From positions 1 to 55,109 of the IMG/VR virus record IMGVR_UViG_3300027782_000109: a DNA stretch of 55,109 bases; one strand, given 5' to 3'. Under the pieces are notes generated by a model, which was not told the origin of the DNA, did no database searches, and saw nothing but the letters and a program-made list of their open reading frames with translations. The position numbers and the translations under genes are program-made. Positions 2 to 32,500 of this stretch are shown piece after piece (position 1 is the stretch's first letter; the number at the start of each line of letters is the position of its first letter). The stretch comes from a virus.

Positions 2-262
2 CCATTCTTCCCACCATTCTTCCCATTCTTCCCACCATTCTTCCCACCATTCTTCCCATTCTTCCCACCATTCTTCCCGTTCTTCCCACCGTTCTTCCCG
101 TTCTTCCCGTTCTTCCCACCTTTCTTCCCATTCTTCCCACCGTTCTTCCCATTCTTCCCGTTTTTCCCACCGTTCTTCCCATTCTTCCCACCGTTCTTCC
201 CGTTCTTCCCGTTCTTCCCACCTTTCTTCCCATTCTTCCCACCGTTCTTCCCGTTCTTCCCA
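2..262 (+). repeat. Tandem TTCTTCCCN / TTCTTCCCACCN repeat
   Basis: About 260 bases consist only of 9-base and 12-base units built on TTCTTCCC, in mixed order, continuing past the left edge of the window. Units differ only at the base after CCC or ACC (A, G or T) and once at TTC to TTT. The array ends at about 262, where unique sequence begins. Confidence 0.9.
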
Positions 263-349
263 ACATTTTCTGGCGGAGGTTGCCCATCATGTACATATTC
301 TAACTGTTTACGATACGGCGGATTCTGTTCTTGTGGATGTATCGTATAA
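2..349 (+). CDS. Phe-Phe-Pro repeat protein with Cys-rich C-terminus (5' end missing)
   Basis: The reading frame is open from the window edge to TAA at 347-349, and the start lies outside the window. The visible part has 25 copies of a Phe-Phe-Pro motif, spaced by zero or one extra Pro, then a short tail (PTFSGGGCPSC...) with six cysteines. I chose this of the three open + frames because every base change between repeat units (CCA/CCG/CCT, TTC/TTT) is synonymous here, and because third positions in the unique tail favour A and T as in neighbouring genes. Units are 9 or 12 bases, so copy-number changes keep the frame. The frame ending at 365 gives a His-Ser-Ser repeat with a plausible non-repetitive tail and is the main alternative. 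Function is unknown. A tail-fibre or surface role is a guess from the position next to oxygenases. Confidence 0.5.
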   Translation, partial: PFFPPFFPFFPPFFPPFFPFFPPFFPFFPPFFPFFPFFPPFFPFFPPFFPFFPFFPPFFPFFPPFFPFFPFFPPFFPFFPPFFPFFPTFSGGGCPSCTYSNCLRYGGFCSCGCIV

Positions 350-407: not shown

Positions 408-854
408 ATGAAATATTTATTTTTAACAGAACCAGATAGCAATGGAGTTTCAGAAGTTTTTCATTCTGTAATTTTGCTAGAAAATTTAGCGCCTGAAGCA
501 ATCGTTTCAAGATGGAATAGTATGACAACTGCCTCAACAGTAATTGGACGAGTATTGGTTGATAAAGAAAATGTTGTAGCAACTGCAATCTGGGATGAAG
601 CAACTGAAAGCCTAACACTTCCTGAAGGAATTCCAGCAGATTCTGTACTTCCTGTAAAAAGTCTAGGTTTTGCATTTTTTATAGATAACGTTCTTACAGC
701 CTATATCCAGGGTAAGCCAAATAGCGTAACTGCTGAAAAGTTTACAGCAGCCTTGACCGCACCAGTTAAAGTTATGAAGGTTGAGGATACAGACCCACAA
801 GACTTGGGGTATACCTATGACGGAACAAGTTTTACCCCTCCATTAGAAAATTAA
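408..854 (+). CDS. Hypothetical protein, possibly tail-fibre associated
   Basis: This gene encodes 148 residues with no family I recognise with certainty. The start is supported by AAGAGG 7 bases upstream of the ATG. The sequence is acidic and mixed alpha/beta in character, with no membrane segment or signal peptide. The last residues (GYTYDGTSFTPP) resemble a short ending often seen on phage proteins encoded beside tail fibres. That resemblance and the repeat gene just upstream suggest a link to the host-recognition apparatus. It is followed after 10 bases by a Cys-rich small protein. Confidence 0.6.
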   Translation: MKYLFLTEPDSNGVSEVFHSVILLENLAPEAIVSRWNSMTTASTVIGRVLVDKENVVATAIWDEATESLTLPEGIPADSVLPVKSLGFAFFIDNVLTAYIQGKPNSVTAEKFTAALTAPVKVMKVEDTDPQDLGYTYDGTSFTPPLEN

Positions 855-864
855 TTAATTTAAA

Positions 865-1110
865 ATGACCAATGCCTGGGAAAAATGGAAACAATCTTTA
901 GGCGAATCAAGACCATGGCACCTTCTTGATGAAGAGTTAAGAATAACAGATCAAACAAAGATAGATAAAAGAATGGAAATATGTAGGGCATGTCCTAATT
1001 TTATTAGTCTTACAACAATGTGCAAAGAGTGCGGGTGCGTAATGAAAGCAAAAACAACTCTTGCAAATGCCGAATGTCCTATTGGAAAATGGCATAAAGA
1101 AGAGCGCTAG
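865..1110 (+). CDS. Small zinc-binding protein with four-cysteine core
   Basis: This gene encodes 81 residues. The order CxxC (RACPNF is the second half), then CKECGC, then a late ANAECPIGKW is typical of a small phage protein family often found beside 2-oxoglutarate oxygenase genes in viral genomes. The cysteines at the centre probably hold one zinc or a metal cluster. No Shine-Dalgarno sequence is visible before the ATG, and the gene starts 10 bases after the previous stop, so translation may depend on coupling. The molecular role is not known. A partner or metal-handling role for the oxygenases downstream is inference from position only. Confidence 0.65.
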   Translation: MTNAWEKWKQSLGESRPWHLLDEELRITDQTKIDKRMEICRACPNFISLTTMCKECGCVMKAKTTLANAECPIGKWHKEER

Positions 1111-1179: not shown

Positions 1180-1884
1180 ATGTATGACGAAAACGATAAC
1201 TACTGGTTTACAAAAGATAGATCAGAAACTGCATCAAATAGAGTTCCAGCAAGACAATTAGACCAAAGTGTTAGTGTTGAAAATCTTGGGTTAGGGCTAC
1301 ATGTTTATCACAATACATTTTCATTAAATGACGCAAATAGATATATCGATACTCTTGAATCAAACCTTTCAACTGGCGGTAAATATAAATGGTCTGAAGC
1401 ACAAGTAACAAATTCTGATGTGCCAATTAAAAAGGCAAGAGATTGCGTAGACTTTAAATACAAGCAAGAAAATCTCGGACCAAAAAATGAAACAAATTCT
1501 GAATTAATTGACCTACATGAAGAGATATATCAAAAACTTAAATACTGTATAGATGACTATGCAAAGTACTGGGGAATTAATGTAACCTATTACGAAGCAT
1601 TTAATTTTGTAAAGTATGAAGGAGCAGGGACTCACTTTAATATTCATGCTGATCATGGACCTGCCTACAATTGCACGGTATCTGCAGTTATATATATTAA
1701 CGACGATTACGAAGGTGGAGACTTAAAGTTTCCAAGACTAGATAACTTAGTATATAAGCCAAGAGTAGGAGACATAGCAGTCTTCCCATCAAACTATATA
1801 TATGAACATGCGTCACTTCCTATGGAATCAGGAACAAAATATTGCGTTGTCATTATGACAGATATCAATGAACTGAGCCACTAG
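1180..1884 (+). CDS. 2-oxoglutarate/Fe(II) oxygenase, prolyl-4-hydroxylase type (copy 1)
   Basis: This gene encodes 234 residues. The C-terminal half is a double-stranded beta-helix core: H156-A-D158 and H210 form the iron triad, K220 in SGTKY is placed to bind 2-oxoglutarate, and the family signature YINDDYEGG lies at 172-180. Such enzymes hydroxylate a substrate using O2 and 2-oxoglutarate and release succinate and CO2. The substrate is not identifiable. It is the first of seven such genes. Its closest relative in the window is the gene at 2674, which shares long stretches around the triad. The ribosome site is AGAAAGG. The stop codon overlaps the GTG start of the next gene, so the pair is translationally coupled. 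Confidence 0.9.
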   Translation: MYDENDNYWFTKDRSETASNRVPARQLDQSVSVENLGLGLHVYHNTFSLNDANRYIDTLESNLSTGGKYKWSEAQVTNSDVPIKKARDCVDFKYKQENLGPKNETNSELIDLHEEIYQKLKYCIDDYAKYWGINVTYYEAFNFVKYEGAGTHFNIHADHGPAYNCTVSAVIYINDDYEGGDLKFPRLDNLVYKPRVGDIAVFPSNYIYEHASLPMESGTKYCVVIMTDINELSH

Positions 1885-2663
1885 TGGATTCAGAAAAATT
1901 CAAGGTAGCAATATTTAGATCATTTAGACCATGGCTAAATAAAGATAGTAAGTCTCTTCCAGGACCTACACAGGGGACTATTCCTGAATGGTATAAAGAT
2001 GCAGATAGGTTTGCTAAAATGCCAAATGGAGAATACTATAAAGCACCGAAAGAGGTATGCCCTTTTCCTAAAGAAGGGACAACTGATGATTATGGGAAAA
2101 TTCCTACATGGAAAGCATGTCCTGCAATTATGGATGCATTTTCAACAGGGTATGTTTTTAAAACTCCTTGTGATTTAGTATTTTTTAAAAATGCTCAAGG
2201 TAACATTGATATTAAAATTGAAGACGCTAAGTATAAAGATTTTTGTACACAAAGACCTCCAATGCCACAATTTGAACATCCAAAAGGATATTACAGGTAT
2301 CACTTTGCTTGGTCTCCAGATTGGGGCCTAGAGTTACCAGATGGCTACAGTGCTTTATTTATGACACCAATGAATAGGTTTGATCTGCCATTTATGAATA
2401 CAACTGGAATTGTTGATTCTGATAAGGTTCACCTTCTTGGAAGTTTCCCATTTTTTATTCCAGAAGGATGGGAAGGAACAGTTCCAGCAGGAACCCCGTA
2501 TCTGCAGGTTCTTCCTTTTAAAAGAGAAAACTGGGAGCACACAACAGAAATTTTAAACCACTCAGACATATATGGTAAAATGGTAGATAACGCAAACTTC
2601 TATCGTCAGCCTGATGGCGGGGTATATAAAAATAAAGTTTGGTCAAGAAGAGAATATAGATAA
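1884..2663 (+). CDS. DUF6065-like phage protein (copy 1)
   Basis: This gene encodes 259 residues and starts with GTG sharing a base with the TAG stop of the preceding oxygenase. No catalytic motif is recognised. It is rich in aromatic residues and proline, with IPEWYKDA near residue 35, a Cys-Pro-Ala followed by a GYVFKTPCDLVF stretch, and a late PAGTPYLQVLPF segment. The same succession (CFP...GYSLSCKEDIEF...AGTPVATIIPI) occurs in the protein at 3330, so the two are paralogs. The pattern resembles what I remember of DUF6065, but that family name is not certain. It is always paired here with an upstream oxygenase, which suggests the two act together. Confidence 0.65.
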   Translation: MDSEKFKVAIFRSFRPWLNKDSKSLPGPTQGTIPEWYKDADRFAKMPNGEYYKAPKEVCPFPKEGTTDDYGKIPTWKACPAIMDAFSTGYVFKTPCDLVFFKNAQGNIDIKIEDAKYKDFCTQRPPMPQFEHPKGYYRYHFAWSPDWGLELPDGYSALFMTPMNRFDLPFMNTTGIVDSDKVHLLGSFPFFIPEGWEGTVPAGTPYLQVLPFKRENWEHTTEILNHSDIYGKMVDNANFYRQPDGGVYKNKVWSRREYR

Positions 2664-2673
2664 GGGATATATC

Positions 2674-3330
2674 ATGCAAACATGGACAGATAAGCAAGAC
2701 CTTGGCAATGGAATCTTTTGCTACAAGGGTGTAATCAAAAAAGAGATTGATGTTATTAATAGACTAGAGTCTAATCTTAAGCCTGTAGGAGATACCACAG
2801 GATATGCTTGGCTACCTGCGTATGTGGGCTACAAGCAGTTAATGCCAGATTATAGAGATTGTAATGATTTTAAGTTTAAGAAAACAGATATAGAGTATGA
2901 TAAAAGCCCTACAAGTTTAAAACTTCAGGAACTGTGGCAAGATGTATACGACGCACAGGCACCAGCAGTTGAAGACTATTGCAAGATCCACAACATTCAT
3001 GAACTAAAGTACTGGGAAGCGTTTAACTTTATTAAGTATGGGCCAGGCCAGCACTTCCAAGAGCACCATGACCACGGGTTTTCATACAACTGTACAGTAT
3101 CATTAGTTGCATACGTTAACGATGATTATGACGGTGGAGAATTAAACTTTAGACTACAGGGCTTGACAGTTAAGCCAGAGGCTGGAGATCTATTCATCTT
3201 TCCATCAACCTTTATGTATCCTCATCGTGCAATGCCAGTACACTCAGGAACAAAGTACTCAATCGTTACCATGCTTGACTACAACAAGAAGTTTCACACA
3301 CCTGAAATGTATGTAGCGGATAAAGATTAA
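2674..3330 (+). CDS. 2-oxoglutarate/Fe(II) oxygenase, prolyl-4-hydroxylase type (copy 2)
   Basis: This gene encodes 218 residues counted from ATG 2674. An upstream in-frame start is possible but would overlap the preceding gene, and AAGGGATAT lies at a fitting distance before this ATG. The iron triad is H131-x-D133 and H184, with K194 in SGTKY for 2-oxoglutarate and YVNDDYDGG at 147-155. It is clearly a paralog of the gene at 1180: EAFNF, KY, DHG, YNCTVS and the FPS...H...SGTKY block are shared in order. The next gene overlaps its stop codon by one base. Substrate unknown. Confidence 0.9.
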   Translation: MQTWTDKQDLGNGIFCYKGVIKKEIDVINRLESNLKPVGDTTGYAWLPAYVGYKQLMPDYRDCNDFKFKKTDIEYDKSPTSLKLQELWQDVYDAQAPAVEDYCKIHNIHELKYWEAFNFIKYGPGQHFQEHHDHGFSYNCTVSLVAYVNDDYDGGELNFRLQGLTVKPEAGDLFIFPSTFMYPHRAMPVHSGTKYSIVTMLDYNKKFHTPEMYVADKD

Positions 3331-4043
3331 TGTACAATATCTCAGTAGAAAAGGCTCCAGGTTGCATATTTGAAATTAGCCCTATGTCTATTAAAAGAGA
3401 CTGGATGGACGCTACTTCAGAAAACCATGCCTACAGATGCTTTCCAGTAACGCAAGCAAATGTAGTTGGATACAGCCTTTCCTGCAAAGAAGATATAGAG
3501 TTTATTTGGGATGGAGTTAATGACCAGACACAGGATAGAGTTACAATCTTTAATCCAGAAAGGGCGTATTCTGGAAGAGGTCAGTCATCAGTAAGTCTAG
3601 ACACAGGTTTAATATTTAGGACTACAGAAGAACTTAGTATCCTAACTATAAACCCAGTAAACTATTTTAGCGATGACTTTGAAACTATGTCTTCTATGAT
3701 TAGCACATCCTTTTATGACAACCCCTTGCCATTAGCAATCAAAGCAAAGGCTGCAAATAAAAGAGTTGTCATTAAGGCTGGAACACCAGTTGCAACAATT
3801 ATTCCAATATCTTTAACTCAATTAAATAACACAGTTATTACTATGACTGATTACAATGATGAAGATAGAAAACGTGTAGAGGCAAATATCTCTTATGGCA
3901 AGGCAGCCCAAGTTTTAAATTCAACTGGAGAATGGACAGACTGGTACAGAAATGCAGTTAATGAAAAGCAAGAGTCTCTTGGATCACACGAAGTAAAAAC
4001 ACTGAAACTTATCGTAGAAGACAAAACAAGTGAGGGTAGATAA
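3330..4043 (+). CDS. DUF6065-like phage protein (copy 2)
   Basis: This gene encodes 237 residues. It contains YRCFPVTQAN, then GYSLSCKEDIEFIWDG, GLIFRT, TINPVNYF and AGTPVATIIPI, an arrangement that matches DUF6065 as I recall it and is also found in weaker form in the gene at 1884. No membrane segment or known catalytic motif is seen. Its ATG shares the final A of the preceding oxygenase stop codon, and its own stop overlaps the next start (TAATG). The oxygenase plus DUF6065-like order repeats that of 1180-2663, which points to duplication of a two-gene cassette. Confidence 0.65.
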   Translation: MYNISVEKAPGCIFEISPMSIKRDWMDATSENHAYRCFPVTQANVVGYSLSCKEDIEFIWDGVNDQTQDRVTIFNPERAYSGRGQSSVSLDTGLIFRTTEELSILTINPVNYFSDDFETMSSMISTSFYDNPLPLAIKAKAANKRVVIKAGTPVATIIPISLTQLNNTVITMTDYNDEDRKRVEANISYGKAAQVLNSTGEWTDWYRNAVNEKQESLGSHEVKTLKLIVEDKTSEGR

Positions 4044-4498
4044 TGGATGAACTAAACCATATACATTTTGACATAGTTAATGATTATGTTAAAAACTCTA
4101 AAGAAGGAAAAGTCAGTCACTACATGATAACTGTATCAAGAGATGGTGAGTCTCCTGTAAGATCTATCATATCATTTGACAATATAGCCCAGGCTTTAGA
4201 GGGTTACGAGATGTATCAGGACGCAGGGTTTGCAAAAGAATACCTAACAGTTTCAATGTATGAACCATCTGGAAAGATTAATACAAAGGTTTTAAAAAGA
4301 AATCATGCAGGAGATCCATCATTTGTAAGGCAAAACTATATTGATACAGTTGAGGCATTACACAAGGTTAAAGATAAGTTAGATAAAAAAGATTATGAAG
4401 ACCTATGCATTAAGATTGTGACCTCATTTGCAAAAGACAATTGGAGATTTAATGCAGAAAGATTCTTAAAACAACTAGAGATAGAGAGGACATTGTAG
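4043..4498 (+). CDS. Hypothetical protein in oxygenase island
   Basis: This gene encodes 151 residues that I do not recognise. It starts on a TAATG overlap with the preceding gene, so it belongs to the same transcript. The N-terminal 75 residues look like a small alpha/beta domain, and the C-terminal 60 residues are charged and helical (KVKDKLDKKDYEDL and onwards). There are no cysteine motifs, signal peptide or membrane segment. A new promoter starts 13 bases after its stop codon, so it is the last gene of the first transcription unit of the island. Confidence 0.6.
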   Translation: MDELNHIHFDIVNDYVKNSKEGKVSHYMITVSRDGESPVRSIISFDNIAQALEGYEMYQDAGFAKEYLTVSMYEPSGKINTKVLKRNHAGDPSFVRQNYIDTVEALHKVKDKLDKKDYEDLCIKIVTSFAKDNWRFNAERFLKQLEIERTL

Positions 4499-4510
4499 GT
4501 CAAAACCCTA

Positions 4511-4519
4511 TGATATAAT
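4511..4519 (+). promoter_or_regulatory. Extended -10 promoter for a leaderless gene (TGATATAAT)
   Basis: TG-A-TATAAT occupies 4511-4519. The hexamer ends six bases before ATG 4526, and no Shine-Dalgarno sequence lies between. Transcription from this element would start at or next to the A of the ATG, giving a leaderless mRNA. Confidence 0.65.
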
Positions 4520-4525
4520 TCAATT

Positions 4526-5200
4526 ATGGACAAAATGGATGCTTCTGTTGTAATTAGAAAGCCGTCACTGACACCTTCTGGTTGGTTTGGCAATGGCAAA
4601 GATATGATTGTTGAGTTAGAGAACTTTATGACTCAAGAAGAAATGGATTTTTTAGAAAAGGCTGCAAAGTCTTTAACAATTTGGGATGTAACTCAAAGCC
4701 ATGTTAACGAAAACGGAACAGTAGTTTATGACTCTGAATACTGGAAAGACCGAGTAGCAACTAGTCCAACTTTAGATAAAAATGATCCAACAATTGCACC
4801 AGTAATTGCAGGACTGTTTCAAAGGCTTAAGCCGATAGTTGAAGAGTTCTATAAGGTAAAGGTTACCCCTACTGGCACAACTATCGTTAGATGGCTCCCA
4901 GGCCAGTTTCAGAACCCTCATGCAGACAAGGAACTACACGAAGGACCAGATGCTGGACTTCCAAACGACTTCCCAAACTATGATCTTTCAAGTCTATTTT
5001 ATTTAAATGAAGACTATGAAGGTGGGGAGTTATATTTCCCACTACAAGATGTAAAGTTTAAGCCTAAAAAAGGAGCAGCGTATTTTTTCCCAGGGGATAT
5101 GAATTATGTTCATGGAGTAACAGAGATTAAAAGCGGTATTAGATACACATGTCCATTCTTTTGGGAGATTACAGAGCACACAGGAGATAGAAAGCCATGA
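4526..5200 (+). CDS. 2-oxoglutarate/Fe(II) oxygenase, prolyl-4-hydroxylase type (copy 3)
   Basis: This gene encodes 224 residues. H132-A-D134 and H196 form the iron site, R206 in SGIRY is the 2-oxoglutarate anchor, and LNEDYEGGELYFP marks the core strands at 160-172. Using Arg where copies 1 and 2 use Lys places it in a different subgroup. It appears to be leaderless, with an extended -10 box directly upstream and no ribosome binding site. Its TGA overlaps the ATG of the next oxygenase (ATGA), so copies 3 to 5 form a coupled run. Substrate unknown. Confidence 0.9.
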   Translation: MDKMDASVVIRKPSLTPSGWFGNGKDMIVELENFMTQEEMDFLEKAAKSLTIWDVTQSHVNENGTVVYDSEYWKDRVATSPTLDKNDPTIAPVIAGLFQRLKPIVEEFYKVKVTPTGTTIVRWLPGQFQNPHADKELHEGPDAGLPNDFPNYDLSSLFYLNEDYEGGELYFPLQDVKFKPKKGAAYFFPGDMNYVHGVTEIKSGIRYTCPFFWEITEHTGDRKP

Positions 5201-6057
5201 CAGAAAAATTCCTAGAACATGTTGAACTTTATCCAAAAATATTTGTATACAAGAATCTATTTAAAGATATTTCAAAAACACTTGAGATTTTAAAAGATGA
5301 AAGTGAAGATGCAATATTTAGTCCTTGGACTAAGTGGTCTCACTTTGGCGAATACATGAATCCGCTATTTAAAGATTATGCACACACAATGAGTATTGAA
5401 GAAATTAGGAAGATAAAAACAAAGACAGAAAAAGAAGAAGCACAAAAACTTGCAGTGCTAGAAGTCTTTGAAAACTTTCATTTAGCCACACAAGATTACA
5501 TACTTAAAAACAATGTTGATTTTGATAAAGAAAAAATCTTAGTAAATCGTGAAGGAGAATCTTTTAATCAGTGGACAACTAATGGCCCAGCAATAGCAAG
5601 ATATAAGACGGACATGGAAGAACCACTGGCAATGGCATATCATTCTGACTTTGTTAGAGAGCCAATTGTAAGCCCAGGTTATAAATTTGGAATTACCGCT
5701 TTAACATATTTTAATGATGACTACGAGGGTGGAGAGATTGACTTTATTGTTGATGGAGAAGCCTATATGTACAAGCCAGAAGCAGGAGACTACTTAATAT
5801 TTCCATCTGGACATCCAGATATCTTGACTAAAGAAGGCCAAGTATATCTACATGGCGTAATGCCAGCAAAGGGAGAAAAGAAATATATTTCCAGAATGTA
5901 TTGGATGAAGTATGAGATTGGTGACGATGAGTGGTTTGAGAAAGAGGTTGAATTTGGAAAGGATGTTTGGAAAGATATGCAGCCAGACATTATGCAAAAA
6001 TTTAGAGATGCTCACCCAAACAAAATGAATGCTGATAAAGAAAAGAGAATAAAATGA
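5197..6057 (+). CDS. 2-oxoglutarate/Fe(II) oxygenase, prolyl-4-hydroxylase type (copy 4)
   Basis: At 286 residues this is the longest of the seven oxygenases. The triad is H149-S-D151 and H219, with K229 or R233 as the likely 2-oxoglutarate ligand, and FNDDYEGGEIDF at 172-183. A helical insertion rich in Lys and Glu lies at about 63-105. A charged tail of roughly 50 residues follows the core and might mediate contacts with another protein. It overlaps the genes on both sides by ATGA junctions, which implies coupled translation in a fixed ratio. Substrate unknown. Confidence 0.88.
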   Translation: MTEKFLEHVELYPKIFVYKNLFKDISKTLEILKDESEDAIFSPWTKWSHFGEYMNPLFKDYAHTMSIEEIRKIKTKTEKEEAQKLAVLEVFENFHLATQDYILKNNVDFDKEKILVNREGESFNQWTTNGPAIARYKTDMEEPLAMAYHSDFVREPIVSPGYKFGITALTYFNDDYEGGEIDFIVDGEAYMYKPEAGDYLIFPSGHPDILTKEGQVYLHGVMPAKGEKKYISRMYWMKYEIGDDEWFEKEVEFGKDVWKDMQPDIMQKFRDAHPNKMNADKEKRIK

Positions 6058-6800
6058 ACCTAGAAAATAAGAAAAGAATTACAAAGGATATTGTTGTTTA
6101 TGAAAACTTTATTGACGAAGAAACTTGTCAAAAAATGATAGAGGCGTTAGATGCTCAGGCAGATAACGGAAAAATCTCTTGGATGCCAATATCATTCTAT
6201 GAGTCATATTCTTCTGTTCTTCCACAAGACAACGATCAAGAAGTTATTGATGCTGGACTTGATCCAACAATTTTTTCAGATATTGAAAAAGTAATGTATA
6301 AAGCAATTGCTTCCGTACATGATTTAGATCCAAAAATAATTTCTAAGATTGGTTACCATACGCAAAAATGGGAACCAGGAGCATATGCTAGAATTCACTC
6401 CGACAACACGGACGAGACAGGAAAGTCTGGAGCATTTACAAGAAGCAGATATGCAGGCTTTCTTTATTTAAATGATAACTTTGAAGGAGGACTTTTAAAG
6501 TTTCCAAGTCAAGATTTAGAGATACAACCAAAGGTTGGAATGCTTGCTGTATTTGACGGGGGATTTAACAACATGCACGAAGTATCACTTATCACAAGTG
6601 GGGTAAGATATACCATTGGGTCTTTCTGGGATGACAGAGAAGAGTCTGCATATCCACAAGAATTAAGAGATGAATGGGCTGCAGAAATGAAAGAGACTAG
6701 AGCCAAGCAAGAAATTGAAAGAGCCGAGTGGCAAGAACTTCTAAAAGAAGGCTGGAAGTTGGATGCTGATGGAAACAAGTACAAGGTAGAGGGAAAGTAA
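6054..6800 (+). CDS. 2-oxoglutarate/Fe(II) oxygenase, prolyl-4-hydroxylase type (copy 5)
   Basis: This gene encodes 248 residues. H115-S-D117 and H175 form the iron triad, R185 in SGVRY binds 2-oxoglutarate by family analogy, and YLNDNFEGG lies at 138-146. After the core, residues 195-248 form a strongly charged helix rich in Glu, Lys, Arg and Trp, probably a coiled coil, which the shorter copies lack. The start overlaps the preceding stop (ATGA), and the next gene begins directly after its own stop. Substrate unknown. Confidence 0.88.
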   Translation: MNLENKKRITKDIVVYENFIDEETCQKMIEALDAQADNGKISWMPISFYESYSSVLPQDNDQEVIDAGLDPTIFSDIEKVMYKAIASVHDLDPKIISKIGYHTQKWEPGAYARIHSDNTDETGKSGAFTRSRYAGFLYLNDNFEGGLLKFPSQDLEIQPKVGMLAVFDGGFNNMHEVSLITSGVRYTIGSFWDDREESAYPQELRDEWAAEMKETRAKQEIERAEWQELLKEGWKLDADGNKYKVEGK

Positions 6801-7463
6801 ATGGAGGTCTTTTTAAAGAAAGAGTTTGATGATGCAGGATATGATACTGAAGTCTTTCACGATGGTATTTTGTTTATTAAGGACTTCTTAAGAGATAATG
6901 AACTAGATACTTTATTGGAAATAATTAAAACAACTCCTAACGAAGATTGGTCTATAGAGTATACAAAGAACCTTGCTAGATTCTGCATGGAAAAATTTGG
7001 ACGAGATGATGTTGATAATTTGGTTGCTGAAGGCAAGTTTGAAATAACCCAGGGATGGGAAGATAAAAATTTAGACATTACGCATAAAGAAATTAGCAGA
7101 AAACTTCAGTTAAGACTTGGAGACTTAATATCTTTATCAGACAACACTCTAGAACTCGCTGGCTTTGGAACGCTGCAAAGAATGCAGCCAGGGGTAGAAC
7201 TAAAAGCACATACAGATCAGCATACAGACCCATCGATTAAATATGCTGCTATACTGTATATTAACGATGACTATAAGGATGGAACTCTATTCTTTAAGAA
7301 TAAAGAAAATTCAGACTTAAGGCCAGAACCAGGAACATTACTTCTTTTTCCAGGAAATGAAGAATATGAACACGGGGTTCGTTTTGTAACAGAGGGACCC
7401 ATTCGCTATGTTACGGTAGGCTTTATAAAAGTTACAGGTTTTTATGAAGAAAATAAATTCTAA
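6801..7463 (+). CDS. 2-oxoglutarate/Fe(II) oxygenase, prolyl-4-hydroxylase type (copy 6)
   Basis: This gene encodes 220 residues. The iron-binding residues are H137-T-D139 and H191, with R202 in GPIRY for 2-oxoglutarate. A second HTD follows at 141-143, so the first Asp could be assigned to either, though H137/D139 fits the family spacing. The core strand motif is YINDDYKDG at 153-161, where the usual EGG is changed to KDG. The ATG follows the previous stop immediately, with GAGGGA as ribosome site. Substrate unknown. Confidence 0.87.
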   Translation: MEVFLKKEFDDAGYDTEVFHDGILFIKDFLRDNELDTLLEIIKTTPNEDWSIEYTKNLARFCMEKFGRDDVDNLVAEGKFEITQGWEDKNLDITHKEISRKLQLRLGDLISLSDNTLELAGFGTLQRMQPGVELKAHTDQHTDPSIKYAAILYINDDYKDGTLFFKNKENSDLRPEPGTLLLFPGNEEYEHGVRFVTEGPIRYVTVGFIKVTGFYEENKF

Positions 7464-7474
7464 GGAGATACAAA

Positions 7475-8101
7475 ATGGACAGAGAAATACTTGAAGAAAA
7501 GGTTTACTATTACACAAACGTAATCGAAGACCCAAAGAAACTTGTTGAGGCAATTGAAAATGATAACAAAGATCCTTGGGGCGAATGGATGGCGTGTAGT
7601 GGTCAAGAGTATATCTATGGAACAGATAAGAATATTGCTTTAACTCCAGATGCTGACGAAAAAGACAAGTATATTTATGATACTTTGCAAAAAGCATTTG
7701 ATGACGTAGCAAGAGATTATGCTGCTGCTCACGGAATCACAGATGAGCCAAAACTATTTCCACAGTATCCAATTAAAAAATATAAAGCAGGAACGTTTAT
7801 GGGCGCACATTTTGATCAGCAAGAGGGAGACGAAAGACTTAAAGTTTCTTTCGTAATGTATCTTAACGATGATTATGAAGGTGGAGAAATTTCTTTTACA
7901 ATCAGAGATCCAAAGGGTCCTATTCAAGGTCCAACTCCAGATTCAGATTTTTCCAATGCAGATAAATCAGCCTATCAGTTTGCAGTTAAGCCAAAAGCAG
8001 GAAGTATTATTGTATTTCCTCCATCACCACCTTACCACCACACAGCACACTTAGTCAAGAGTGGTGAAAAGATTATGGTTCCGCAACACTGGATTCACTA
8101 A
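7475..8101 (+). CDS. 2-oxoglutarate/Fe(II) oxygenase, prolyl-4-hydroxylase type (copy 7)
   Basis: This gene encodes 208 residues. H112-F-D114 and H189 make up the triad, K199 in SGEK is the expected 2-oxoglutarate ligand, and YLNDDYEGGEISF lies at 129-141. A loop of about 30 residues rich in Pro, Asp and Ser (about 143-170) is inserted between core strands and could shape substrate choice. The ribosome site AAGGAGAT is the strongest in the island. It is the last of the seven, and a perfect hairpin with a T run begins at its stop codon. Confidence 0.9.
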   Translation: MDREILEEKVYYYTNVIEDPKKLVEAIENDNKDPWGEWMACSGQEYIYGTDKNIALTPDADEKDKYIYDTLQKAFDDVARDYAAAHGITDEPKLFPQYPIKKYKAGTFMGAHFDQQEGDERLKVSFVMYLNDDYEGGEISFTIRDPKGPIQGPTPDSDFSNADKSAYQFAVKPKAGSIIVFPPSPPYHHTAHLVKSGEKIMVPQHWIH

Positions 8102-8216: not shown

Positions 8217-10250
8217 ATGTCAGATTTTTTTAGTTTTAGACTTCCAGAAGATTTTATAGATAAATATGTTTCTGCTCCAAGCCCTTTTGGGTTTAAGGAT
8301 GCAGCAGAAAACTCTTTAGGAGAGATTACATTTATCCGTACTTATTCTCGCATGAAGGATAATGGAACTAAGGAAAGATGGCATGAAGTTTGTCGTCGAG
8401 TAATCGAGGGTATGTACTCAGTACAAAAGAATCATGCTAAAGAAAATCGTTTACCATGGAATGATTACAAGGCTCAGAAGTCTGCACAAGAAGCATTCCA
8501 AAGAATGTTTGAATTAAAGTGGACACCGCCAGGACGAGGCATGTGGGCTTTTGGAACTCCTATGGTAATGGAGAAAAAGAATTCAGCAGCACTACAGAAT
8601 TGTGCAATGGTATCTACAAAGGACCTTGACAAGAATGATCCAGGAGCCTTATTTGCTTGGGTTATGGACGCTCTTATGCTTGGAATTGGTGTAGGGTTTG
8701 ATACAGTAGGACAGGATAAGCATTTCTCAATCTATTCCCCAACAGAGCCTGAACAGGTGTTCGAAATTCCAGACACTCGTGAAGGATGGGTAGAGTCGGT
8801 TAGACTTCTCATTAACTCTTACCTAAGAGCAAATCAAAGTATTCAGAAATTTAACTACGATCTAATTAGACCTCTTGGAGCGCCCATAAAGGGCTTTGGA
8901 GGCGTTGCATCAGGACCTGCACCTCTTATCAAGTTGCACGACTATATAGACCGTGTAATAGGCTCCAGGGTAGGTGAAACACTAGACTCTCGTGCTATCG
9001 TAGACCTAGTAAACCTTATTGGTACCTGTGTGGTATCAGGCAATGTCCGTCGATCAGCAACTCTCGCTTTGGGTAATGCGGGAGATGAAACATTCATGAA
9101 CCTAAAAAACTCAGAGTTATTCCCAGAGCGTAACTCATTTAATCCAGATAATCCAGGATGGGCTTGGATGTCTAATAATTCTATTTCAGCAGAAGTAGGA
9201 ACAAAGTACGAAGACTATGTGGATTTAGTTACAGAAAATGGAGAGCCAGGTTTTATCTGGCTTGACGTTGCTCGTAATTATGGCAGACTAAAGGATGCGC
9301 CAGATGGAAAAGACTATCGTGTGATGGGCTTTAATCCCTGTGCGGAGCAGCCATTGGAGTCATACGAATTATGTACACTTGTAGAAGTACATTTGAATCG
9401 TCATGAATCTAAGGAGGACTTCCTGCGTACCCTGAAGTTTGCATATCTTTATGGAAAGACTGTAACACTTGTTCCAACACACTGGCCACAAACAAACGGT
9501 ATCATGCAGCGCAACCGTCGTATTGGTACATCACTTACTGGTATTGCATCATTTGCAGACCAAAAGGGTTTGCCAGTTGTTCGTGAATGGATGGACGAAG
9601 GATACAACAAGATTCGTCACTATGATCACCAGTATTCAGAATGGCTATGTGTCCGTGAATCAATTCGTGTAACAACAGTTAAGCCATCAGGATCAGTTTC
9701 AATTCTTTCTGGTGCAACTCCTGGAGTTCACTGGGGTCCTGGAGGAAACTTCTTCCTTCGTGCTGTTCGATTTGGAACTACAGATCCAATGATCCATTTG
9801 TTTAAAGCAGCAGGGTACACAATTGAAGACGATGTTGTATCAGCAAATACATCAGTAGTTTACTTCCCAATCAAGTCAGGTCATCCAAGATCTGAAAAGG
9901 ATGTAACATTATTTGAAAAGATTGCTCTTGCTGCAACTGCTCAGAAGTACTGGTCTGACAATGGTGTTTCTGTAACATTGTCATTTGATAAGGAAACAGA
10001 ATCAAAGCATATTGTTCCAGCACTCAATATGTACGAGGGGCAACTAAAGGCCGTTTCATTCCTTCCAATGGGAAATACGGTTTATCCACAGCAACCTTAT
10101 ACTCAGATTACTGAAGAGCAATATGAGTCATATATTGGTAAGTTAAAGCACATTAATTTTGCTGCAATTTACGACGGTGTAGATAATCTTGAGGCTCAAG
10201 GTGAATCATACTGTACAACAGATTACTGTGAAATTAAAATAAACAAGTAG
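8217..10250 (+). CDS. nrdJ: Adenosylcobalamin-dependent ribonucleoside-triphosphate reductase (class II)
   Basis: This gene encodes 677 residues, in the size range of monomeric class II reductases. It reduces ribonucleotides to deoxyribonucleotides by a cobalamin-derived thiyl radical, supplying DNA precursors without O2. Cysteines match those of the Lactobacillus enzyme in spacing: C129 in LQNCAM, C375 and E377 in NPCAEQ, C386 eleven residues later, and a C-terminal pair C666/C671 for reduction by thioredoxin. SGNVRRSA is also typical. The gene stands alone between a terminator and a new promoter, so it is likely regulated separately, possibly through the palindrome upstream. The cofactor must come from the host. 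No frameshift or intein is seen. Confidence 0.95.
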   Translation: MSDFFSFRLPEDFIDKYVSAPSPFGFKDAAENSLGEITFIRTYSRMKDNGTKERWHEVCRRVIEGMYSVQKNHAKENRLPWNDYKAQKSAQEAFQRMFELKWTPPGRGMWAFGTPMVMEKKNSAALQNCAMVSTKDLDKNDPGALFAWVMDALMLGIGVGFDTVGQDKHFSIYSPTEPEQVFEIPDTREGWVESVRLLINSYLRANQSIQKFNYDLIRPLGAPIKGFGGVASGPAPLIKLHDYIDRVIGSRVGETLDSRAIVDLVNLIGTCVVSGNVRRSATLALGNAGDETFMNLKNSELFPERNSFNPDNPGWAWMSNNSISAEVGTKYEDYVDLVTENGEPGFIWLDVARNYGRLKDAPDGKDYRVMGFNPCAEQPLESYELCTLVEVHLNRHESKEDFLRTLKFAYLYGKTVTLVPTHWPQTNGIMQRNRRIGTSLTGIASFADQKGLPVVREWMDEGYNKIRHYDHQYSEWLCVRESIRVTTVKPSGSVSILSGATPGVHWGPGGNFFLRAVRFGTTDPMIHLFKAAGYTIEDDVVSANTSVVYFPIKSGHPRSEKDVTLFEKIALAATAQKYWSDNGVSVTLSFDKETESKHIVPALNMYEGQLKAVSFLPMGNTVYPQQPYTQITEEQYESYIGKLKHINFAAIYDGVDNLEAQGESYCTTDYCEIKINK

Positions 10251-23523: not shown

Positions 23524-26500
23524 ATGGCTGATGTAGAATCCAATATTCATGTAAATATTGATACGTCCGATGCTTTAGCAAGTCTAAAACTTCTACAACG
23601 TCAGATATCAGCCTTCCATACACAGATGGCAAAGTCTGGTACCGCAGCCTCAGCGGTAGCAGCAAATCAAGCACAAAACTTGATGAACAGCATAAATGCT
23701 ACTGGACAATTCCAAGCATCGATGCGAACAGTTACATCTAGTACAGAGTCATTCACCAATGCCCTAGAAAGAAATAAGTTAACTTCAAGAGAGTATTTTA
23801 GATATACTGGCGCTGCCACAAGAACCTTTGGTAAACTTTTTAAGTCTGAATTTGAAACAATAAACAAGGTTGCACGAGAGCGTGTAAAGGATATTCAGAC
23901 CCAGTATGTTAAGTTGGGTCGTGGTGCTAATGGAGCACTTCAAGCAATTGCTGTAAGACCTCTAACCCTTGATATGAAAAACCTGGGTACACAAACAGCC
24001 ATTGCAGCACAAAGACAGCAACTACTTAATCAATTATTAAAGCAAGGATCAACCAATCTTCTAAATTTTGGTAAGAATACACAATGGGCTGGTCGCCAGT
24101 TGATGGTTGGTTTTACAGTTCCACTAGCAATGCTTGGAACAACTGCTGCAAAAACATTCATGAAACTTGAAGAACAGGCAATTAGATTTAAGCGTGTTTA
24201 CGGAGAAATGTTTACAACACAAGCAGAAACAGATGCTATGGTTAAACAAGTTCAAAAACTTGCAACAGAGTATACAAAGTATGGGGTTGCAATAGAAGAC
24301 ACAATGAAGATGGCAGCGGATGCCGCAGCGATGGGTAAACAAGGAGCAGAACTACTTGCTCAAATTTCACAAGCAACAAGACTTGCAGTGCTTGGCGGAG
24401 TAGATCAAGCACAAGCACTAGAAACAACTATTTCAGTAACAAATGCATTTGGGGTTGCTGCAGATCAATTAGCAGGAAAAATTGATTTTCTTAACGCAGT
24501 TGAAAACCAAACTGTTGTATCTATTGAAGATTTAACAACAGCAATTCCAAAGGCTGGGCCAGTTGTAAAGCAACTTGGTGGATCCGTAGAAGACTTAGCA
24601 TTTTTCCTTACAGCAATGAAAGAAGGCGGAATCAATGCATCAGAAGGTGCTAACGCACTTAAATCTGGTCTTGCATCTTTAATTAATCCATCTGCAAAAG
24701 CCAGCGCATTTCTTGGAGATCTTGGTGTTAATATTAGAGGAATTGTTGAAGCCAATAAGGGAGACATTAAAGCAACAGTAGTTGGCTTTGCACAAGCACT
24801 TGATACACTTGATCCACTTAACCGTGCTCGTGCTATTGAGCAACTATTTGGTAAATTCCAGTTCTCAAGACTATCTACACTATTTCAAAACGTAACAGCA
24901 CAGGGTACACAAGCAAACAGAGTGCTACAACTTACACAAGCAACTACAGAAGAACTTGCAATCTTGTCACAGCGAGAATTAGATAAGATCCAAAACACAA
25001 CAACATATAAATTTAAAAAGTCAATGGAAAATCTTAAGTTGGCTATTGCTCCAGTAGGAGAACAGTTCTTAAAAGCACTGACACCTATTGTTGAGTTTGT
25101 TGGAAAGATTCTTGATAAATTTAATAATCTTGGTGAAGGTAGTAAAAAGTTTTTAACTATATTTACAGTTGCAGTTGCAGGTGTTGGCCCAATTCTTCTA
25201 ATGACATTTGGTTTAATAGCAAATGCTGTTGCAAATATAATTAAAATGTTTGCAGGCATGAAATCTATGTATAACAGAACAGGCGGAGCAAGTAAGGTTC
25301 TAGGAGAACAGACAAACTATTTAACCAAAGAACAACTAGAAGCCTCTGCAGTTTCAGCATCTCTTGATCAAGTTCATCAAAAATTACAGCAAACATTTAC
25401 TTCTGAAGCAGGCGCATTAAATAACTTAGCAAATGCATATAGAAGAGCAATTGCAGCACAGATGGGATTTACTGGTCCAGTTCCAGGCGGTAGAGGAAGT
25501 CAGGCAAGGAAAAAGTATTCAACTGGAACAACCAGGGTACCAGGAAGTGGAAATCAGGATACAGTTCCATCAATGCTTACTCCTGGTGAAGCAGTTATCC
25601 CAGCAGAAGTAGCACAAGATCCTAGATTTAAACCAATTATTAGTGCAATGGTTAGCAAAAGACTTCAAGGTTTTAATGATGGCACAGGAGAAGTTACTCA
25701 GTCTGGAAAAGCAAAGTCAAAAGTAAAATCAAAACCAGACACAGTATTTGCACATGCAACAGGTAATTCAAAGGTTGATCTTAGTGATGTACCAGATGAG
25801 TTTAAAGAGAAGGCTCAGACACTTAAGGTAAGAGGATTTGAAAAGGGAACAACATATACTGCTGTAGGGTTTGATATACCAGAATCTCTTCACAAAGATC
25901 TAACACACAATAGAGCAAACCTAGTAGAATATTTAGAAGAGATAAAGAAAACACGATCAGTACAAACAATGACATCTAAGTTAATGGGCCCACCAAGCAA
26001 CATGAGTCCAACCAAAGCAGCACAGGTAGCAGATCAAATTAGAACAAATCTTATCAAATCACTAGAAGCAATTCCTAGAGTTCCACTTGGTGATGGTAGC
26101 CACAGTATTCCTTTGATTGGAGACAAAGATGTCTACTCAAGAATGGGAAATATTAAATCTGGAATCCTTGGGGGATTAGCAAGAGATCCAAAACATGCTG
26201 AAGGAGTTTCAGCACTTCTAGCACCACAAGGACTTACAAGTTTTCAAAAGCCAAAGATGGTCTACAACAGCACAGCAACTGCAAAAGAACTTTATGAAGC
26301 AGTAGAGAAATCAAAGAGTAAGCCTAACACAAAGGCTTCAGCAAAAAGACTTTTTGATCACTATCCAGGACAAGTTGTTAAGGTAAGCAGAGATGCAAAG
26401 GGAAATATAATTGCATACGAAAGACCAGAAGTAAGCGCAAGAACAAATGAACTTAAAAAGACAATGAACAATGCAGTTTTGGAAGATGGAGCATTTAAAG

Positions 26501-29500
26501 GTGGAAGATCTGACGGATCTTCTGGAACAATAAAGGTTGCATCTGTATCGGGTAAAAGAAGTCAGGCAGCGCTACTAGCATTACAAAAACTAGAAGATGC
26601 AAAAACAGCAGGAAAGCCAATAACCAAATATAGAGAACAACTGTCGGTAGGAACAGGGTTTAGCAATGTTGGAGCCAAGCACCTTTCTGGAGTACACATA
26701 ACAGAAGATGGAAGAAAAGTTTATGTAAAGCCAATGATAGATGAAAAATCTGCAATGGCTGAACTAAGAGCAACAAGGATTGCAAGAGAAGTCCATGGAC
26801 TTGAAACACCAAAGCAAGAATTAAGACTAATCCAAGACCCAGTAACTGGTAAAACAATCTATGCTCTTGAGTCTGAGTTTAATTCTAAGTTTGATCCAGA
26901 TACAATTCCAAAAAAGTTTAGCAAGAAGCAATACATTAAGCAGTTACTTGCAGCAGGCCTCCGTGGAGATAAAGACCTCAAGAGAGGAAATCTAGGAGGA
27001 AATGTTTTAACTGACGTAGGTACCGCAGGAGTATTTAAGACAGCGTCAGGAGCAAGAGATTATGCAGACAAGATGCCTTCTCTTGAAGAGATGATAAAGA
27101 CTAACCTAAGTGGGGTTAAGGGACCAGCAGCAGCAAGATCTCCGTTCTGGTTTGGAAATCAGACTGCAGATATTGCAAAGAAAATGTCAGCAGAACAATT
27201 TGAATCAATGATGCAAAAAGAAGTTAAAAAATCTATTACAAACCTTGAAAAATTAATTCCAAAGTTACAGTTAAATGATGCAGAAAGACCACTCTATACA
27301 TCCATGCTTGATAGATTAAAAGAAAAGGTAGACTGGAAAGCAATTCATAAACTTCATACATCTATTGCAATTAAGCCAGATGAGGTTTTACAAGATGATA
27401 AGACTGGAAAGATAACCAAGCCAAAGACAGAAAAACTTCCTGCTAAGGTAAAGTCATCTGCAGGCAAAAAAGATACATTGATGACGCAAGAGCCTAAAGG
27501 AAAAAGCATTGTTCAAGGGATTCCTAAAAAGGTAGGAAGATTTGTAATGCCTGGAAAGGCAAATGCTCCAGAAGCAAGAGTAACAACGTCGACAGCATTG
27601 ATAGATGGAGCAAGAGGATCTATTGCAGAGGCAAAAGCAGTTGGCGCTAATATTGGAACAAATATTTCTCAATCAGCAGCAGCAGCATCAAGAACTTTGC
27701 TGTATGGAACTGGCCCAGTTGATGCAGAAGCAAAGTCTATTCGTCGTCAATTAGAAAAACAAGAAAGAGTAAAAGCAAAAACACAAGCAAGAATTAATGC
27801 AAACAAGACTGCAATGTATGGAACAACTGGAACTATCGATCCAGTAATGAGAGGAAAAAGAAAGCAAGCAGAGTTGGCAGAAAAAAGAAGTAGGCTTGCA
27901 GAAAAAATAGGATACCAACAACAAATTATTTCTGAAAGAGCAGCAGCACAGGCTAAGAGCAAGACAGTGTCTGGAAGAATAACAGCATTTGCTTCAAAGA
28001 GAGCAGATGCTAGACAAGCAAAAATTGATGCAGGTAAACGCCCAGGTATGGGTATAGGGGGTGCAGTCGGTATAGCATCAGGTGCTGCAATGATTGGGTC
28101 AATGGCCCCAGGCAAAGTTGGAGAAATATCTCAAAAGGTTATGATGCCACTAATGGGGCTATCTATGATTATACCAATGCTTAAGAGTCCAGCATCCGCC
28201 CTTGCTATTGGTCTTATTGCAACTGTAGGATCTTTTGTTGCTTTAAGAATGGCATTTGATAGTGCTCAGCAAAAGGTCTTAGACGAAAGCGATAAGTTTA
28301 GGGGATCTGCTAATGCAATACAAGCAATAGCAAACTTTAGTGGCAAGGCAACAGCATCAGAACAAATGGATTTAAGAAGAAAGAACTCATTCTCAATGCT
28401 AGGGCCAGCAACAGGCAAGACAACCTACGGAGAAGCCTTTGTTCAAACGGCAGAAGGCAAGGCACTAACAAAAAGAATTGCAGAGCAAAATTCTGCTGGT
28501 AAGGGCAACGTTGCAGCAAAAGATTTAAGTGGACAACTATCGGCATCAATAATGTCTGGTGCTATTGATATGGGGCAAGCAAAGAGTTTGGCAATGAATG
28601 CTGCTAGAGAAGCAGGAGATATGTCTATTGGCATTAAGGTCATCGGACAATTAGAAAGTCTTTTGGGTCCAAACGGAGAAAGACTTGACAAAGAGCCACT
28701 AAAGGTTAGACTTGATATGGTTGCTCAAAATTCTAAGGCTATGCAAAGCAGTATTAATAGTGTTAAGGGTGCAGGTTTAACAACGCAGTTGGCTGGACAA
28801 AAGACAATGCAAAAGGTTGGTATTGGAGCATCAGCACTTGGTGGAGCAGCAGCAGGCGCAGGCATTGGAGGAATGATTGGCGGGGCTCTTGGTGCGGTTG
28901 GTGGTCCTCTTGCAGTTATAACTGCAGGTATTGGTGCAACTATCGGAGCAGGAATAGGTGCTGCAGTTGGTGGTATTGGTGCATACTTTGCATCAAAGAA
29001 GTTTACAAAGCAAGCAGGTACTCTTGGAGCAGCAGCAGCAGTAGATGCTAAAATTGCAATGGAACAAAACAAACAAATGCTTGATTCGTTTGATATGTAT
29101 TATCAAAAAAAGGTTGAAGAACTTAGATTACAAGGAAAAATAAATGAAGCCGACGCTCTACAAACCAAGTATCTTAAAGAAAGAGATAAACTAACTGCAG
29201 CCCAAGGCAAACTACAAGCAGATGTTGTATCACAATATGAAGGTGCTGGTGGTCTTCAAGAATCAATGATGAGCGGAATGAAGAAAGCAGCAACTGCCAG
29301 ATACAAAGATGATCCAAACCAACTAGCATACTTAGATGTTGTTAATCAGCAAGCAGGAGACCTAAGAAGCGGTGGACTAATCTCTAAGGGTCAAGAATAT
29401 TTAATTCAAGCAAAGATGGCAAGTGGAGATATTCCTCCTGCAGTATTTAGAACTTTACTAGGACTTGCAGCAGATAATAAAGATATTGCTCCAAAGATGA

Positions 29501-32500
29501 TGAATATTATTACTAAGTTTAGCGGTGCAACTTCTGAGTCTATTGGTGTAGCAGCACAAAATATTCTTGGAGCAGATGATGTTGTTAACAAGGAAGTTCA
29601 AACAAAATTTGTTACAAGAGTTGAAGCATTTGAAAAAGATTCAGATGCGCTTGACTTTACAAAGAATATGATTAAGTTAAACAATCTTAATGCAGTTATA
29701 CCATCTGACGTAATGGTTAGTTATTATGTAGATCCAAAAAACCAGGCAGCATATGATAATCTAAATAAAATTCTTGACACAATCGAAGGAAGCAAAGATT
29801 TAACTGCAAAAATTGTTTACGAAATTATGCCAGAGGTTAAGGGAACTGCAGCCTTTGATGAGGCATACTTTAACACATTAACTGAAGATCAGCAAAAAGT
29901 TTACACAACAACCATTGCATCATTAATTAATATTCCAGACCCAACAATTATTGAAAGTGAAGACTTTAAGGCTTGGCGTAAAGAGACAGGTCCAAAGGGA
30001 GGAGCAGGTGTTACTGGAAGCAAGGCTTATATTGTAGATAAGTATATCGAGGCTCAAGGAAATAAGGCGGTTACAGATGGGGTTGCCATAGATACAAAGG
30101 CCCCAACAGGAACAACCCCAACTGGCGGGGGAAGCAAAGTTCAATCTTCACCACTAGATGACCTAGTAAAGAAACTAAGAGATGTACGAAAGAACCAGAT
30201 CAAGGTTACAGAAGGCTGGAGTGCCTCTCGTAAGGCTCTAGACAACCTGTTTGGTGGTAAGAAGACCATCGATGTATTTAGCGGTATAGAAAACGATCTA
30301 AGAGGTTTGGGCGGTAGCCAGGACTTTATCGAACTAATCGTTGGTATGGATCCAAAGGAATACGAGAAGAGAAAGAACTCTCTATTTAAATTTGACAACA
30401 AGGGAAATATTATTGGATTAAAGGCAGATGCAAAGAATATCCAAGAAGCACTTAACTCAATCACCATGGGTGAATGGAACTCAAGCATGGAATCAGAAAC
30501 CAAGGCTATAAGTGATCAAAGCAAGGCTATGGATAAACTTTCAAAGTTAGGTGTTCCAGTTGCAGATGCATATGAACTAGTTTCTAATAAAGCATATGCA
30601 CAGGCAATTGCTAATGGCGTAAATGAAAAATCATTAGGCAAACTAATTACAAAATATAACGCATTAACTGTAGCACAGAAGGCCTCGGCATCAATTCAAG
30701 ATGCAAAGACTGCAACTTCTCAACTTAAAAATGATAGGCTTCAAGAGCAAAGATTAAAACAAATGGCAGCAGGTGGCAACGGACTAAATGCTTTTGCTAT
30801 TTCTTCAGACAATGAATTAAAAGCGTTAGAAGTTTCTATTTTTAATCAAAATAATAATCTTGCAAGACTTAAAGCAAAGTTATTGGCAACAAAAGGTGTA
30901 GATGCAAAGAAGGCGGTACAAAAAGACATAGACGCTGCAGAAATTATTTTAGCAGAATCAAATGATGCAATGAAATCAAGACTTGAAGAGTTAAAAAAGA
31001 CTGTAGGGCTATACGAAGATTTGTTTAATGATTTATTTTCAAACGTTATGGATTCTTTTGATACAGAAGAAAGAAAAATTCAAATAGATTTTGAAATGAA
31101 TATTGATAACAAAAAGGCTAATGCAGAAATTGAAAAAGCACAAAATGAAATTGCAGCAATGCAATATCTTAATGATGACAAAGAAGCAGCGCTAAAGGCG
31201 ATTGAAGATCAAGAGCAAGCAATTAACGAAAAATACGATAAAAGAATTGAGGCTTTGGATGCAGTAGAAAAGGCAAATGCTAATATTGCTAACCAGCAAA
31301 AGGGACAGTTAACTCTTGCCGAAGCGCTAACATCTGGAGACATAGCAGCAGCAGCCCGTGCTGCACAAGAAATTAGAGCGCAAGAAGCAGCAGATGCAGT
31401 AACAAAGCAAAAGGATGCAATTGAGCAGTCTAGAAAATATGAATTATCTACAGCAACTGGGTTTGATAAGCAAGGACAGAAAGATCCAAAACTTGGCCAA
31501 CTTAAAACTAGAAAGCAACTTGAAAAAGAAATTAAAGAAATACAGGATAAAATATTTGAAAAAGAAGAGTCCGCAATAGAGCCACAGCAAGAGTTTCTTA
31601 GACTTAAGCAAATTACATTAAAAGAAGATATTGCAGGAATCAGGATTGCTGGCTTAAGCAGAGAAGCCTGGGAACAAATTCAAAGTAATGTAGAGATTGC
31701 AAGAGTTAGGGCGCTAGACTTTGTTACGGGTATTGAGTCTGCAATGAAGGCTCTTGATCAGGGGCTAACAGACTTAAGCAAATTCCAGGCTAAAGATTTA
31801 ATAGCGAAGTATGGAGTACAAACACAGCCAGTAAATACAGCAGCAGCAGATAGAGCAGCAGCAGAAGCAGCAGCAAAGGCTGCAGCAGATAAAGCAGCAG
31901 CAGATGCAGCAGCAAAGGCTGCAGCAGATAAAGCAGCAGCAGATGCAGCAGCAAAGGCAGCAGCAGAAAAGGCTGCAGCAGAGGGCAAGTCAGCAGCAGA
32001 GCAAGCAGCAGCAGCAGAAGCAGCCAGAAAGGCTGCAGAAGCAAAGGCCAAGGCAGAAGCAGAGGCTAGAGCAGCAGCAGAAGCAGCAGCAAAGGCTGCA
32101 GCAGAGAAGGCAGCAACTGAAAAAGCAGCAGCAGAAGCAGCAGCAAAGGCTGCAGCAGATGCAGCAGCAGCAGCGGTAGACAATGCATCAGATTCTCCAT
32201 CATATAGTGTGATTCCTAAAACAGCAACAACCTATGTTGTTAAACCTGGAGACACTCTTTCTGGAATTGCAAGTCAGAATGGAATTTCTCTAGAAGAACT
32301 TCTTGATGCTAATCCAAAGTTTACTACAGATCCAAAGTATAAGGGTGGAAGTATGATTTGGTCTGGAACAACTGTTAAGATTCCAGGCGGAGGATCGGGC
32401 GGTGGTAGTGGCGGTGGATTTGGAATGCAGATGGCTGCCATGGGTGGACTAATTAATCCAATGAAGTTTGCGCTTGGCGGTTTTGCAAAGGGTACTGATA

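Follow-up and report, generated by a model that had tools for sequence, protein, structure and literature searches.

A phage cassette that pairs a Phe-Pro repeat fibre-like protein with an array of predicted prolyl-hydroxylase-type oxygenases

Virus-encoded protein hydroxylation is known from large eukaryotic viruses, where the prolyl 4-hydroxylases (P4Hs) of chloroviruses and giant viruses act singly, on collagen- or proline-rich peptides. In the extensin system of plants and algae, several P4H paralogs act on structural proteins with proline-rich repeats. T4-like cyanophages commonly have several 2-oxoglutarate (2OG) oxygenase genes, and S-SCSM1 is reported to have 24 that are dispersed (PMC9602691); the published role of the cyanophage enzymes is metabolic (PMC9602691, PMC3037559). 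Here, we analysed a 55,109-nucleotide (nt) fragment of an uncultured phage (IMG/VR record IMGVR_UViG_3300027782_000109, positions 1 to 55,109; the window), in which seven genes for P4H-type 2OG-Fe(II) oxygenases (A to G) lie at 1180-8101, downstream of a fibre-like protein with a Phe-Pro repeat. We consider it likely that the region belongs to an exchangeable cassette with four to eleven hydroxylases, which would modify the proline, and perhaps the phenylalanine, residues of a dedicated repeat fibre. The enzyme family is already known; what would be new is a phage fibre served by its own multi-hydroxylase cassette, of which no description was found in the openly licensed literature. For phage prolyl hydroxylases together with tail fibres, the one paper found was that on Phold annotation, in which EGLN3-like phage proteins are mentioned.

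In every array whose upstream flank is covered, an FN3-type protein that ends in a Phe-Pro repeat is found directly upstream. A gene for a ribonucleotide reductase (RNR) that is ~93-97% identical between array and array-less relatives borders the cassette on the right, and 48 relatives anchored on this gene have a visible fibre. In 25 of them both the array and the repeat are present, in 23 neither is, and none is discordant (Fisher p 3e-14). L349, in which the repeat is cut by the flank, was scored by hand and L289 was left out of this count; both were apparent exceptions, and a whole-record search confirmed the repeat upstream in each. There are 14 state changes on the RNR tree, and all seven phylogenetically independent supported switches agree (p 0.016). 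In 20 array-less contigs that were scanned whole, the Phe-Pro repeat was not found. Array-less relatives with near-identical RNR and portal have another fibre at this place, with GAF, YSFTP, FGFSP or Gly-rich repeats, and the pairing of repeat and array persists in phages in which the portal is just 47-61% identical to that of the window.

The reverse search used a DNA pattern for PFFPPFFPFFP alone in viral contigs; the matches listed are a lower bound, and the loci are not independent samples. Among the matches listed, 115 of 120 stretches hold a repeat open reading frame (ORF), and of the 81 repeat loci with a downstream flank of 3 kb or more, 78 have a same-strand 2OG gene there (at least three such genes in 72). 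Of the three exceptions, L159 corresponds to an additional FFP protein in contig G065, which has six 2OG genes with another FFP repeat just upstream of them. In the genome collection, the DNA pattern matched six contigs. One of these (L355, JAFMJX010000128.1) is a phage contig of this group with the same FN3 and Phe-Pro fibre and 2OG genes; it is binned as a Chitinophagaceae bacterium, likely as a contaminant. A 2OG gene was not found in the other five.

Since fibre and array are adjacent, their shared inheritance could reflect linkage, and linkage alone is the main rival explanation: array and Phe-Pro fibre would travel as a block, exchanged as one beside a conserved border, and the oxygenases would act on the host surface, a glycan, another virion protein or a small molecule. 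That X1-like genes of the DUF6065 family occupy the same position in array and array-less cassettes alike is consistent with this explanation. Against it, the N-termini of fibres with different repeats can be as much as 94% identical (L340 with YSFTP and no array, L287 with FFP and an array), which shows that exchange takes place within the fibre gene and that it is the repeat type, rather than the N-terminus, that goes with the array. The lack of discordant relatives, the agreement of the seven switches, the pairing at low portal identity and the peptidyl prolyl hydroxylases among the closest solved relatives also argue against linkage alone, which we regard as improbable.

Besides adjacency, several observations weigh against a dedicated fibre substrate. 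Pro-containing YSFTP repeats without an array exist (L285, L340), and therefore proline alone does not require the array. The second exception among the repeat loci, L189, has only ~3 kb downstream, and the third, L201, is a 38-kb fragment in which the repeat stands in a different architecture and nothing matches PF13640. No correlation is seen between array size and the length of the repeat (rho 0.09). In addition, neither the fibre N-terminus nor DUF6065 matched anything among 50,697 phage records searched for isolate relatives; a tblastn search with the repeat against isolated phages also gave nothing, but low-complexity filtering makes this result uninformative.

The fibre-like protein of the window has lost its N-terminus at the contig end. 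Nucleotides 2-349 remain, which encode only the repeat and a tail and have no Pfam match, including to Collagen; this fragment lies outside the region covered by the preliminary description of the locus, in which the link to the oxygenases was not drawn. The same C-terminal tail is found in L170 and L207. Complete orthologs have fn3 domains, and the repeat occupies the C-terminal half of the protein, which would be located in the virion. The repeat codons of the window vary only at the third base (Pro: CCA 23, CCG 12, CCT 2; Phe: TTC 49, TTT 1). The 73 distinct repeat regions consist nearly entirely of F and P with some Y (FFP 2254, YFP 149, FYP 0), and the units are FFPP (919), FFP (737) and, less frequently, YFP. 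Five Phe-Pro fibres (L178, L192, L219, L227, L349) end in a Hint/intein-like domain below the Pfam cut-off, which hints that the fibre C-terminus may be self-processed. Some array-less fibres also have a Hint-like C-terminus below the cut-off, and a Mtd_N domain is found in the gene upstream of one array-less fibre.

The preliminary description, made from the sequence alone, had claimed seven tandem oxygenase genes with intact catalytic residues. All seven ORFs are open and intact, all score above the curated cut-off of PF13640 (2OG-FeII_Oxy_3; 27 bits) in the profile search proposed there, and all have the HxD motif, the distal His and the 2OG anchor at +10, which is Lys in four and Arg in three as described. 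The proteins are thus P4H-type 2OG-Fe(II) oxygenases by sequence, with hydroxylation as the predicted activity. Some details of that description needed correction: the genes do share one operon, but X1, DUF6065 and X2 are interleaved with them, and the N-D-D/N signature is N-E-D in C. In the orthologs (38-66 per gene), HxD...H shows alignment gaps only, without any mutation, and the anchor hardly varies. The most divergent protein, D, is barely above the cut-off. The start of B is likelier at 2674 than at 2614. Since most neighbouring genes overlap or abut (A/X1 at 1884, B/DUF6065 at 3330, C/D at 5197-5200, D/E at 6054-6057, E/F at 6800/6801), these genes form a single operon. E has a weak sub-threshold match to the RiPP (ribosomally synthesized and post-translationally modified peptide) oxygenase YhhC. 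The PHROG names 'ferrochelatase' and 'DNA endonuclease' on 2OG-domain families at 1180-8101 look like mis-propagated annotation. A defence system was considered and rejected, as the PADLOC match is to a generic CRISPR-associated 2OG profile only.

Among A to G, fold prediction covered B alone. The AlphaFold model (predicted local distance difference test, pLDDT, 90.3) is a double-stranded beta-helix, and prolyl hydroxylases head its hundreds of PDB matches. The best fold match is the P. putida P4H that acts on EF-Tu (4iw3/4j25, E 5e-11); the chlorovirus enzyme vCPH (5c5t; E 3.5e-10, TM-score by target, TMt, 0.70), an algal P4H with (Ser-Pro)5 and PHD2 also match. By profile, the best matches are the bacterial P4H 5hv0/3itq, collagen prolyl 3-hydroxylase 1 and vCPH, and also PHD2. 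The model thus indicates that B has a prolyl-hydroxylase fold, and both sequence and fold place it mainly with peptidyl prolyl hydroxylases. Because of these matches and the pairing of repeat and array, we infer that the proline of the FFP/FFPP repeat is the most likely target. Modification or repair of DNA or RNA by AlkB/TET-like enzymes would fit the nearby RNR, the possible dUTPase fold of DUF6065 and the weak Tet_JBP match of C (E 0.013, below cut-off). This explanation is very unlikely, given that all seven proteins belong to PF13640, that the top matches of B are prolyl hydroxylases, and that array-less relatives keep the RNR and X1-like genes.

The seven genes are old. In 39 stretches from relatives, the order A-X1-B-DUF6065-(X2)-C-D-E-F-G-RNR recurs, and a second arrangement, A-B-DUF6065-X1-C-D-E, is without F and G. 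In the tree, each of A to G forms a well-supported clade that spans divergent phages, with A and B as sisters; these clades are separate from the cyanophage proteins, while the deep branches are uncertain. The median pairwise dN/dS (nonsynonymous to synonymous substitution rates) against the window is ~0.07-0.11 per gene, D having one usable pair only. Phylogeny and dN/dS thus rule out recent duplication, as the preliminary description had argued, and the sequences indicate ancient paralogs under strong purifying selection. Loci linked to the repeat have 4 to 11 oxygenase genes, and each of A, B, C and E is missing from just one of the 56 complete ones (Table 1); the minimal set is this core, with D, F and G variable. 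No correlation at p<0.01 was found between D, F or G singly and features of the repeat. Seven enzymes of the same specificity, retained so that a very long repeat is hydroxylated quickly enough, would also suit one repetitive substrate with dozens of sites and a copy number that ranges so widely. However, the core members are each retained and not interchangeable, the other paralogs of the window are just 23-42% identical to A, and repeat length does not track array size, so dosage is an unlikely explanation. Taken together, sequence comparison gives good support to a multi-enzyme modification system with non-redundant members, one of the two possibilities raised earlier; the other, several substrates, has less support, with the evidence favouring one repetitive substrate, the Phe-Pro fibre upstream.

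We propose that the region is an exchangeable phage module that encodes, in one operon, the fibre-like protein, the oxygenases directly downstream and two DUF6065-family proteins. During infection, the oxygenases would use O2, Fe(II) and 2OG to hydroxylate many proline positions of the repeat, the beta-carbon of phenylalanine being a possible additional site. Each paralog may be specialised for a residue, a register or a pre-modified intermediate, and so many enzymes may serve different registers, positions or sequential products. The product would be a hydroxyproline-rich fibre, more soluble or adhesive, that resembles plant extensins or collagen-like virion proteins in function. Sulfotransferase-, methyltransferase- or dehydrogenase-like genes in the cassettes of some relatives may tailor the new hydroxyls further. 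We lean slightly towards a more general scheme: each fibre's repeat type would determine the dedicated enzyme set (the array for FFP/FFPP; other sets or none for GAF, YSFTP and FGFSP), and the resulting heavily hydroxylated, sometimes tailored fibres would set adhesion or host range. An alternative proposed in print for cyanophage 2OG oxygenases is auxiliary metabolism, with the enzymes mainly consuming 2OG or rewiring host metabolism (PMC3037559, PMC9602691). Here it has next to no likelihood, as it predicts neither the pairing with the fibre repeat, nor four distinct core paralogs, nor exchange together with the fibre. The proposed fibre substrate is specific and testable, and phages that are nearly identical but have a different repeat and lack the array are natural negative controls. 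If the proposal is correct, abundant phages with probable actinobacterial hosts encode a multi-enzyme hydroxylation line for a Phe-Pro biopolymer, from which peptide hydroxylases of new specificity could be drawn.

The features of the cassette and its right border are given in Table 1.

Table 1. Features of the Phe-Pro fibre and oxygenase cassette in the window; loci are complete repeat-linked loci.
Feature	Position	Strand	Description	Basis
Fibre-like protein, C-terminal part	2..349	+	FN3-type; Phe-Pro repeat (PFFPPFFPFFPP...), then Gly/Cys tail; proposed substrate	Frame-2 ORF open at 5' end
w1	408..854	+	148 aa, between fibre and array	w1-like in 15/26 array loci, 1/23 array-less loci
w2	865..1110	+	81-aa Cys-rich DUF6171-like protein	PF19668 29.7 bits (cut-off 27)
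A	1180..1884	+	P4H-type 2OG-Fe(II) oxygenase (Lys anchor), sister of B	PF13640 42.5 bits; 55/56 loci
X1	1884..2663	+	phrog_7084 protein, distant DUF6065 relative	phrog_7084 E 2e-31
B	2674..3330	+	P4H-type 2OG-Fe(II) oxygenase (Lys anchor)	PF13640 56.5 bits; AlphaFold pLDDT 90; 55/56 loci
D65	3330..4043	+	DUF6065 protein	PF19541 92.1 bits
X2	4043..4498	+	151 aa, no family match; some arrays only	Profile searches, relatives
C	4526..5200	+	P4H-type 2OG-Fe(II) oxygenase (Arg anchor)	PF13640 38.1 bits; 55/56 loci
D	5197..6057	+	Divergent P4H-type 2OG-Fe(II) oxygenase (Lys anchor), dispensable	PF13640 28.8 bits; 35/56 loci
E	6054..6800	+	P4H-type 2OG-Fe(II) oxygenase (Arg anchor)	PF13640 35.3 bits; 55/56 loci
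F	6801..7463	+	P4H-type 2OG-Fe(II) oxygenase (Arg anchor)	PF13640 43.0 bits; 44/56 loci
G	7475..8101	+	P4H-type 2OG-Fe(II) oxygenase (Lys anchor)	PF13640 44.1 bits; 50/56 loci
RNR	8217..10250	+	B12-type; right border of exchangeable cassette, outside system	PF17975, PF21995, phrog_367

In relatives, w2-like genes are also found immediately before isolated 2OG genes at other genomic positions, suggesting that w2 may be a functional partner. X1 is conserved in the array cassette, and distant X1-like genes are also found in array-less cassettes. For DUF6065, on which no papers were found, the model (pLDDT 70) matched the dUTPase-like structure 3c2t (Foldseek E 4.7e-4, TMt 0.67); a dUTPase-like fold is possible, with moderate confidence. 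Some cassettes add a short-chain dehydrogenase/reductase (SDR) gene (PF00106) or a JmjC-type gene (PF08007), and some have DOT1/class-I-like methyltransferase and sulfotransferase-like genes, both below cut-off. Some array-less cassettes have AspH (PF05118) or a sulfotransferase-like gene below cut-off. Upstream of RNR in the array-less L291, L298 and L317, which have other fibre repeats, there is a paralogous 'FFERF' family with an HDH motif, one member of which is without a Pfam match; this is possibly another oxygenase family matched to other repeats.

Elsewhere in the window, an Ala/Glu/Lys-rich tandem repeat (31835-32174) lies within a 3075-aa ORF (23524-32751) that is probably a tape-measure or tail protein. 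Three relatives of ~118 kb have WhiB genes, and the DnaE-type polymerase of the window is ~54% identical to the enzymes of Streptomyces phages; because of these similarities, the host is probably an actinobacterium.

Compared with known systems, the window resembles T4-like cyanophages (S-SCSM1, P-SSM2 and others) in its many PF13640 genes, some of which adjoin tail-fibre genes in S-SCSM1. The 24 genes reported for that phage (PMC9602691) show that the 'one to a few' copies per phage assumed in the preliminary description were too low and that seven are not exceptional by number alone; our profile search found 13 PF13640 matches in its genome. In contrast to the dispersed cyanophage genes, those of the window form a compact, order-conserved operon, which was not seen in the cyanophage records examined, and the cyanophage 2OG proteins are merely ~25-35% identical to the window proteins. 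Like chlorovirus vCPH (PBCV-1) and the giant-virus collagen hydroxylases, the window encodes a P4H-fold enzyme (B). Unlike viral collagen hydroxylation, the system in this tailed phage has a set of paralogs and a non-collagenous FFP/FFPP repeat in place of the Gly-X-Y repeats of collagen. The extensin-type P4H of Chlamydomonas (3gze) is a fold match of B, but the plant and algal system belongs to the eukaryotic secretory pathway and has no homologous substrate. Finally, whereas the P. putida P4H is one enzyme for one proline of host EF-Tu, the window has many paralogs in a phage fibre cassette.

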